Assembly (NCBI GenBank): GCA_028712895.1
Contig: JAQTPL010000007.1
Coordinates: 1 to 62,376, forward strand
Direction: 5' to 3'
Source of the DNA: a bacterium
GTDB lineage: Bacteria; CAYTYR01; UBA6262
Length of the DNA: 62,376 bases
Positions 19,870-29,608 of this stretch are shown piece after piece. Both the position numbers and the translations under genes were made by a program. Position 1 is the stretch's first letter. The number at the start of each line of letters is the position of its first letter. Below the pieces are notes generated by a model. That model had not been told where the DNA came from and searched no databases. It saw only the letters and a program-made list of their open reading frames with translations.

Positions 19870-19960
19870 GGAGAGGTGGCCGAGTGGCTGAAGGCAGCCG
19901 CCTGCTAAGCGGTTGTACGAGTGAAAACTTGTACCCTGGGTTCGAATCCCAGCCTCTCCG
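19870..19960 (+). tRNA. tRNA-Ser (anticodon GCU)
   Basis: A 91-base class II tRNA. GGAGAGG pairs with CCTCTCC, the anticodon loop reads CTGCTAA (GCU), a long variable arm follows, and the T arm has GGGTTCGAATCCC. CCA is not encoded, unlike the tRNA-Ser 200 bases upstream. Its last 17 bases are duplicated downstream. Confidence 0.95.
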
Positions 19961-20156
19961 TTTTTAATCTTGAAGATAAGGATTCGACCCGCCCAGCAAA
20001 CGTTGGCGGGCCGGAAAAAGCCCCGGAGCTAGATGATAAAGAAGTAAGCGCGACCGAAGGGAGTCCGCCAAAGTTCGTTGGCGGAAGGGCGGCCGGCGAC
20101 GAAGGAGGCTGCTGAAATAGCGGCCGGGTGAGGAGGAATCCCAGCCTCTCCGTTTT
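19944..20156. repeat. Direct repeat of the tRNA-Ser(GCU) 3' end enclosing a GC-rich insert
   Basis: The 21-base segment at 19944-19964 (the last 17 bases of the tRNA plus TTTT) recurs exactly at 20136-20156, 192 bp further on. The DNA between holds stem-loops such as CCGCC...GGCGG (two of them) and a GC-rich stretch with GCGGCCGG. This looks like an insertion or tandem duplication that kept the tRNA end intact. No integrase or credible protein is encoded. Confidence 0.75.
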
Positions 20157-20245
20157 AAAAACGATTACCCGCCACTAATGCTTCGGCGGGCGCGGCACAG
20201 ATTTTAGAAGAGATTACACAGATTAAACAAAACAAAGAGGTTATA
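20157..20245. repeat. Stem-loop and GATTACACAGATT repeat upstream of STAS-like gene
   Basis: A CCCGCC...GGCGGG hairpin (about 20168-20191) is followed by a related word CACAGATTTT and by GATTACACAGATT. The 13-mer recurs twice at 24273-24307. AGAGG before the next gene serves as its ribosome-binding site. Confidence 0.55.
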
Positions 20246-28963: not shown

Positions 28964-29025
28964 ATGGCTGTAAGCGGATGGCGGACGGCAGTAAAAACAA
29001 AAAACATTGAAAATATAGTGTGATG

Positions 29026-29203
29026 ACGAGATTGCCTGGTAGCTCAATGGGTTCGTGTCGCGACGAATAAGGAGCGACAAGCTACGAACGCCGCCGAGAT
29101 GGTGAGGCGGCCGGAGGAGCAGAGCGGCCCGCGAGCGACAATTAGCGTAATAAGCACAAGTGAAAGTGATATAGTATAACGAGATTGCCTGGTAGCTCAA
29201 TGG
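29026..29203. repeat. 153-bp duplication carrying the 5' end of tRNA-Asn
   Basis: A 25-base segment at 29026-29050 (8 bases upstream plus the first 18 bases... of tRNA-Asn, ending CTCAATGG) recurs exactly at 29179-29203, where it continues into the real tRNA. The sequence between is palindrome-rich: GTTCGT...ACGAAC and GCGGCCGG with GAGGAG words, similar in style to the insert after tRNA-Ser(GCU). The left copy is a tRNA fragment of about 18 bases that cannot fold into a tRNA. Confidence 0.75.
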
Positions 29204-29508
29204 TGGAGCGAGCGGCTGTGATTAAAATTGCAGCTTCCACGAGAAATCGTGGTTGAAAAAGTGGGTGAATTCAGGGAACCCTGATTGCCGGAAGGCGTAA
29301 GGTAACCCTGAGCCAAGCTCCGAAGGAAAATCGGAGAAGGTGCAGAGACTATCCCGCAAGGGAGTACTCTAGAAATATTTGGGGGAAGCGCCCACTCTCT
29401 AAATCCGGGATCATTCGGACAAGAGAATGAGATAGTCCAAGCTCTGAAGAAACTCAGAGGATACTTGTAACCGCTAGGTTGTAGGTTCGAGTCCTACCCA
29501 GGCAGCCA
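29186..29508 (+). tRNA. tRNA-Asn (anticodon GUU) interrupted by a group I intron
   Basis: Exons 29186-29219 and 29468-29508 join into a 75-base tRNA with encoded CCA. The acceptor TGCCTGG pairs with CCAGGCA, the D arm GCTC pairs with GAGC, the anticodon stem AGCGG pairs with CCGCT, and the T arm is GTAGG/CCTAC. The spliced loop CTGTTAA gives anticodon GUU, splitting between U35 and U36. Without splicing one would misread the gene as GUG (His), but then the loop does not close properly. Confidence 0.94.
29220..29467 (+). ncRNA. Group I self-splicing intron in tRNA-Asn anticodon loop
   Basis: A 248-base intron with no ORF. P1 pairs exon GCTGT (29215-29219) with the internal guide GCAGC (29230-29234), leaving the expected U-G pair at the 5' splice site. 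P2 is CCACGA-GAAA-TCGTGG (29237-29252). P3 pairs 29261-29265 with 29353-29357. P4 pairs 29270-29276 with 29306-29312. A P6 hairpin is at 29318-29336. P7 pairs GACTAT (29347-29352) with ATAGTC (29432-29437), within the conserved GTGCAGAGACTA and AGATAGTCC regions. P9 is CTCTGA/TCAGAG. The last base is G29467 (omega G). Small size and tRNA location suggest subgroup IC3-like. Confidence 0.93.
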
Positions 29509-29513
29509 ATATT

Positions 29514-29544
29514 AGAAAAACCCCATATTTTATGGGGTTTTTCT
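29514..29544. terminator. Terminator after tRNA-Asn
   Basis: A perfect 14-bp inverted repeat (AGAAAAACCCCATA / TATGGGGTTTTTCT) with a 3-base loop. It can act in both directions. Confidence 0.9.
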
Positions 29545-29608
29545 ATTAATGGGGATATATTAATTTGAAATAATCTGCTGTAATATAACAATAAATATTA
29601 TTTAATGA

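Follow-up and report, generated by a model that had tools for sequence, protein, structure and literature searches.

A group I intron in the anticodon loop of a bacterial tRNA-Asn gene, with same-site relatives in bacteria and viral contigs

The split tRNA-Asn gene and its surroundings

The window, as the whole 62,376-nucleotide stretch analysed is called here, carries a tRNA-Asn(GUU) gene split by a group I intron (Table 1). As proposed in the initial annotation, the interruption falls between U35 and U36. Exons joined at 29219/29468 fold into a cloverleaf that ARAGORN calls tRNA-Asn(gtt), with anticodon GUU, and exon 2 closes with G73 (29505) and an encoded CCA (29506-29508). The split gene is invisible to ARAGORN run without introns. 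Intron-split tRNA-Asn genes are missed by tRNA finders, and the "missing tRNA-Asn" of many genome bins is therefore explicable. A consensus scan gave no report of the terminator-like hairpin read downstream of the tRNA.

The tRNA-Asn genes are unsplit in two genomes, G001 and G002, of the same genus as the window genome (G000). In G002 the same oxidoreductase beta-subunit gene (83% identity) lies just upstream of the tRNA, and this locus, the single full-length tRNA-Asn match of G002, is therefore the orthologous site without intron. Because two congeners have the unsplit tRNA, one of them beside the same upstream gene, the intron ends are exact, and the length, splice sites and lack of ORF first assigned to the intron all stand. 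Compared with the joined exons, the body of the G001 tRNA has two differences only, at positions 31 and 39; the 31-39 pair is A-U in both congeners, and G-C in the window. Being the only body differences from G001, and next to the intron, these residues were counted in favor of intron acquisition. Co-conversion or adaptation to P1 would produce such a pattern, though a compensatory change of this pair could also arise without co-conversion. CCA is encoded in the window, and in neither congener. The intron is the sole group I match in its own genome, and no match was found in four relatives of the same class. Used as a DNA query, it found no relative in 58 other genomes; pattern and covariance searches were therefore used.

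Small GIY-YIG ORFs adjoin tRNA genes (Cys, Asn, Arg, His, Pro) in the window genome and its congeners (L025:40-455, L098:1385-1816, L097, L100, L096, L105, L101). A partial tRNA copy is often present on the far side of the ORF, as would result if a cassette entered the tRNA gene and restored it. The insertion upstream of the split tRNA-Asn gene looks like one of these cassettes, minus the gene. Its 28-nt repeats of the leader and tRNA 5' end are 153 bp apart, and the 125 bp in between are a GC-rich insert with no ORF, single-copy in the genome, and folding no better than shuffles (z -1.0). A mirror image of this repeat is found at tRNA-Ser(GCU), the 3' end of which (19944-19967) recurs 192 bp downstream (20136-20159), again with a GC-rich insert between the copies.

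Table 1. Coordinates of the features described, in the window and, for the last entries, in other genomes
Feature	Position	Strand	Evidence
Upstream insertion; tRNA 5' end and leader repeated (29023-29050 and 29176-29203)	29023..29203	+	absent from G002
tRNA-Asn exon 1 (positions 1-35, end ...CUGU)	29186..29219	+	unsplit orthologues in G001, G002
Group I intron, 248 nt, ORF-less, terminal G at 29467	29220..29467	+	RF00028, 81.7 bits; covariation
P1: GCUGU 29215-29219 with guide GCAGC 29230-29234	29215..29234	+	U-G at 5' splice site, kept in 28 of 28
P2, 6 pairs, GAAA loop	29237..29252	+	two-sided changes in 6 of 6 pairs
P3, 5' strand (partner 29389-29396)	29260..29267	+	structure drawing, covariation
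P4 (29271-29276 with 29306-29311) and P5	29271..29311	+	100% of cells paired; P4 5' strand fixed by pattern
P6 and P6a	29312..29341	+	structure drawing, covariation
P7, 5' strand, guanosine-binding helix (partner 29432-29437)	29347..29352	+	92.9% of cells paired; A-U to U-A change
P7.1 and P7.2 hairpins, provisional	29353..29384	+	63-67% of cells paired
P3, 3' strand	29389..29396	+	structure drawing, covariation
P8 with distal hairpin	29397..29425	+	P8 90.2% of cells paired; distal part 51.9%
P7, 3' strand	29432..29437	+	structure drawing, covariation
P9.0 (29438-29441 with 29464-29467) and P9 with GAAA loop	29438..29467	+	P9.0 90.2% of cells paired; two-sided changes
tRNA-Asn exon 2 (U36 to CCA)	29468..29508	+	unsplit orthologues; ARAGORN on joined exons
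Terminator-like hairpin 3' of tRNA, T-run within stem	29513..29545	+	read from sequence
Permuted tRNA-Asn unit	L053:5775-6090		
Permuted tRNA-Asn unit	L075:3865-4150		
Permuted tRNA-Asn unit	L044:6760-7070		

Anatomy of the ribozyme

In a permissive run on the stretch 29186-29508, the whole Rfam Intron_gpI model RF00028 (model 1-253) matched 29210-29459 with 81.7 bits (E 3.5e-21; cut-off 50 bits), bearing out the group I identity assigned from the letters. The gathering run over the whole window missed the intron, presumably as a result of speed filters. All the elements drawn in the initial annotation (P1, P2, P3, P4, P6, P7, P9 and the terminal G) are present, and P5, P8 and P9.0 can be added to them, as can P7.1 and P7.2 with less certainty. 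U29219-G29230 is the pair at the 5' splice site, and G29467 the 3' end of the intron. Inspection by eye revealed no contiguous pairing of UAACC beside GCAGC as P10, a helix absent from some group I introns. The free-energy z-score of the intron is -3.64.

Covariation was analysed in an alignment of 28 related introns. In this set 84.5% of cells pair, a measure in which the structure is favored over versions with slid partners, being drawn on the window row; two-sided changes, which are stronger evidence for structure, were found in 41 of the 66 pairs. The covariation score (0.331) exceeds that of shuffled alignments (0.119) and is reached by none of 500 shuffles, which do not preserve the relatedness of the introns; it drops to 0.06-0.11 when partners are slid. 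A pseudoknotted P3/P7 core with P4-P6 is thus supported by covariation. Residues C32-U35, the GCAG of P1 and the 5' strand of P4 were set by the search pattern, and the invariance of those P1 and P4 columns is therefore built in.

Like the classic tRNA introns of bacteria, the intron is a small group I ribozyme that sits in an anticodon loop and lacks an ORF; it also has their U-G pair in P1, terminal G and GAAA loops at L2 and L9, and like them is devoid of P5abc. It differs from them in the host tRNA, tRNA-Asn(GUU), in the U35/U36 site, and in the P7.1/P7.2-like hairpins found in many members of the family. The classic introns are of the IC3 subgroup, which has GAAA at L2 and L9, and neither P5abc nor P7.1/P7.2. 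The GAAA loops and the lack of P5abc fit IC3, while the provisional P7.1 and P7.2 between P7 and P3 recall IA.

Distribution, mobility and origin of the intron family

A single pattern, made of P1 (CUGU with GCAG) and P4, was scanned over ~85,000 species, each represented by one genome. Among the 52 matches, 36 are tRNA-Asn introns at the same site and two lie in tRNA-Asp(GUC), all with exact ends. Two more introns, L052 and L080, the ends of which were set by hand, bring the further tRNA-Asn introns to 38, a lower bound for the family, as one pattern with fixed P1 and P4 parts was used. L048 was left out of the count, L058 and L081 are truncated where their contigs end, and L045, L067, L069, L072, L074 and L077 are chance matches without tRNA context. 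No tRNA exons surround the group I matches L002, L004, L005 and L007 of distant genomes. Rfam scores exceeded the cut-off in all eight family loci scanned.

The same-site tRNA-Asn introns span about a dozen phyla, hosts including, among others, Betaproteobacteria, Elusimicrobia, several Patescibacteria, WOR-3, Stahlbacteria, PVC, Aminicenantes, Acidobacteriota, Neomarinimicrobiota, Actinomycetota, Myxococcota and Melainabacteria. Because metagenome bins make up most of the hosts, some of the labels may be wrong. The tRNA-Asp(GUC) introns (L049:2669-2864 and L071:2782-3017) reside at the same position. The CUGU of the anticodon loop is common to tRNA-Asn and tRNA-Asp and fits the guide sequence, which suggests that the intron may jump between the two isotypes. 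In a tree of the introns, which has long branches, the window intron is grouped with introns from Stahlbacteria, WOR-3 and Buchananbacteria (support 98/94); the nearest identity is 79%. Very short tRNA-Asn introns occur in Yanofskybacteria (L042:5285-5463, 179 nt; L062:1861-2042, 182 nt), and are possibly minimal ribozymes. The Azoarcus intron is longer than either.

The open-access literature searched yielded no description of a group I intron in a bacterial tRNA-Asn, in agreement with the early remark that no well-studied case was known. Novelty is provisional, but the family behind the window intron is apparently wide and undescribed, and would extend self-splicing introns to tRNA-Asn.

Nine viral contigs match the pattern, and seven of them give tRNA-Asn introns, two of which are identical. 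Introns of 844 nt in L120 (4701-5544) and 586 nt in L117 (134-719) encode a LAGLIDADG_2 and a PDDEXK_5 endonuclease, respectively. Assignment of these contigs to phages comes mainly from the classification of the collection; family searches on a few proteins agree, and are not decisive. On a viral contig (L115:3211-3894), the 3' end of the tRNA-Asn that carries the intron coincides with the start of an HNH endonuclease ORF. According to a 2014 review, phage group I introns were known in protein-coding genes only (PMC3984707), a statement against which the L120 and L117 introns run. The latter resembles the I-Ssp6803I-type (PDDEXK_5) tRNA-fMet intron, as both combine an anticodon-loop intron with a PD-(D/E)XK endonuclease; yet the I-Ssp6803I-type intron sits in a different tRNA, and no ORF is present in the window intron, through loss or from the outset. 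Phage tRNA introns carrying endonucleases are plausible vectors.

All this is very probably best explained by a horizontally acquired group I ribozyme, which has to excise itself from the tRNA-Asn(GUU) precursor and belongs to a family spread most likely by DNA homing. The explanation draws on the Rfam match, the unsplit orthologues, the covariation, and the 38 tRNA-Asn and two tRNA-Asp introns at the same site. From the structure we infer that a guanosine bound at P7 would attack after U35, with the U-G pair of P1 setting the position. Once released, U35 would in turn attack after the terminal G29467, aligned by P9.0, and ligation would restore the anticodon loop CUGUUAA. Horizontal acquisition and homing are argued for by the nesting of the window intron among those of other phyla, and by the endonucleases of phage introns. 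Two hallmarks of mobile introns diverge here: at 248 nt and without ORF, the window intron has no homing endonuclease of its own, but intronless alleles are present at the orthologous site in close kin (G002 and G001). Lacking an ORF, it is probably immobile by itself now; phage-borne homing, with ORFs lost later, would best account for how the family spread.

Whether the spread was driven instead by the small GIY-YIG nucleases near tRNA genes, rather than by phage-encoded endonucleases, has to be considered, as at its tRNA-Asn, which has no intron, G001 has such an ORF inserted between copies of the tRNA 5' end, and the permuted tRNA-Asn genes described below have GIY-YIG and HNH ORFs on their flanks. 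Yet ORFs of the same kind lie at intron-free tRNA-Cys, Pro, Arg and His genes, and for this reason look like separate elements, making this an unlikely route. Less probable still is that the intron is old, vertically inherited in the lineage, and lost in G001 and G002. Occurrence at the same position in about a dozen phyla would fit, and losses of group I introns are common; but both congeners lack the intron, four class relatives have no group I match, and the window intron falls inside a set from other phyla.

No other tRNA-Asn was found among the 36 other tRNA genes of the 94%-complete assembly. The tRNA for Tyr, and some of those for Thr and Ile, are missing from the same set too, hence the assembly has gaps, and the suggestion that this is the only tRNA-Asn gene agrees with the genes found but is unproven. 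In a related complete WOR-3 chromosome (CP070802.1) the tRNA-Asn exons found are the split ones only. Growth is likely dependent on splicing, and translation depends on a ribozyme if no second tRNA-Asn gene exists. That the locus is dying or silent, the intron no longer splicing and an unsequenced intact tRNA-Asn serving the cell, might be read from the missing isotypes and the insertion directly upstream, but is very improbable, since neither the exons nor the catalytic core show damage, the single full-length match of G002 is the orthologue of this locus, and the insertion repeats the tRNA leader, a copy of which is therefore kept; neither a failed group I match nor an unsplit tRNA-Asn accompanying a silent locus, either of which would speak against the initial annotation, was seen.

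Permuted tRNA-Asn genes in the Margulisbacteria group

The order of the tRNA-Asn gene is normal in the window, but permuted at one locus in each of three other genomes, L044, L053 and L075 (Margulisbacteria, WOR-1, Saganbacteria). These loci were at first taken as introns with an inserted ORF, a reading rejected once the order proved permuted. Each unit, a natural permuted intron-exon gene, starts with the 3' half of the intron (P8 3' strand, P7 3' strand, P9 and terminal G), followed by exon 2, a 5-nt linker, exon 1, and the 5' half of the intron (P1 to P8 5' strand). The exon block measures 77 nt in all three. P8 links the intron halves across the tRNA by 13 pairs in each locus, with compensating differences; P3, P9 and P9.0 pair too, and P7 pairs with one mismatch in two of the three. 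Rfam group I matches flank the tRNA block on both sides in every case, most of them below the gathering score, as expected for halves. No intact tRNA-Asn was found in the three genomes, and among 74 genomes of the phylum these three alone match the permuted pattern. An HNH ORF lies upstream of the unit in L044 and L075, and a GIY-YIG ORF downstream in L053 and L075; the L044 copy, read by eye, runs off the contig.

The permuted order predicts a 77-nt circular pre-tRNA made by back-splicing. Most simply, a tRNA whose intron bore an ORF would have been duplicated in tandem, after which the outer parts were lost. It seems probable that a phage-spread family specific for CUGU anticodon loops (Asn, Asp), the window intron included, turned tRNA-Asn of Margulisbacteria into a permuted gene, 3' half first, which would mature via a ribozyme-made circle opened by tRNA end-processing enzymes.

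Engineered permuted group I precursors are known, and the permuted relatives may be a natural version of the permuted constructs used for making circular RNA. A natural permuted group I precursor is ND5-717 of mushroom coral mitochondria (PMC6545197), which shares with the three loci the permuted order and the predicted back-splicing to a circular RNA; those loci, in contrast, belong to bacteria and involve a tRNA. In algae and archaea, permuted tRNA genes use protein splicing, by tRNA-splicing endonuclease and ligase (PMC3978253), whereas joining by a ribozyme is predicted here. No bacterial precedent for a permuted tRNA gene was found in the open-access papers searched; if the reading is true, these would be, within those papers, the first bacterial tRNA genes of such order, and joined by RNA catalysis. 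The Rfam YrlA (Y RNA-like) model also matches the permuted tRNA block (L075:3907-4017, and in L044 and L053) with 38-45 bits (cut-off 69); a tRNA-like part arranged in similar order within YrlA is the probable reason.
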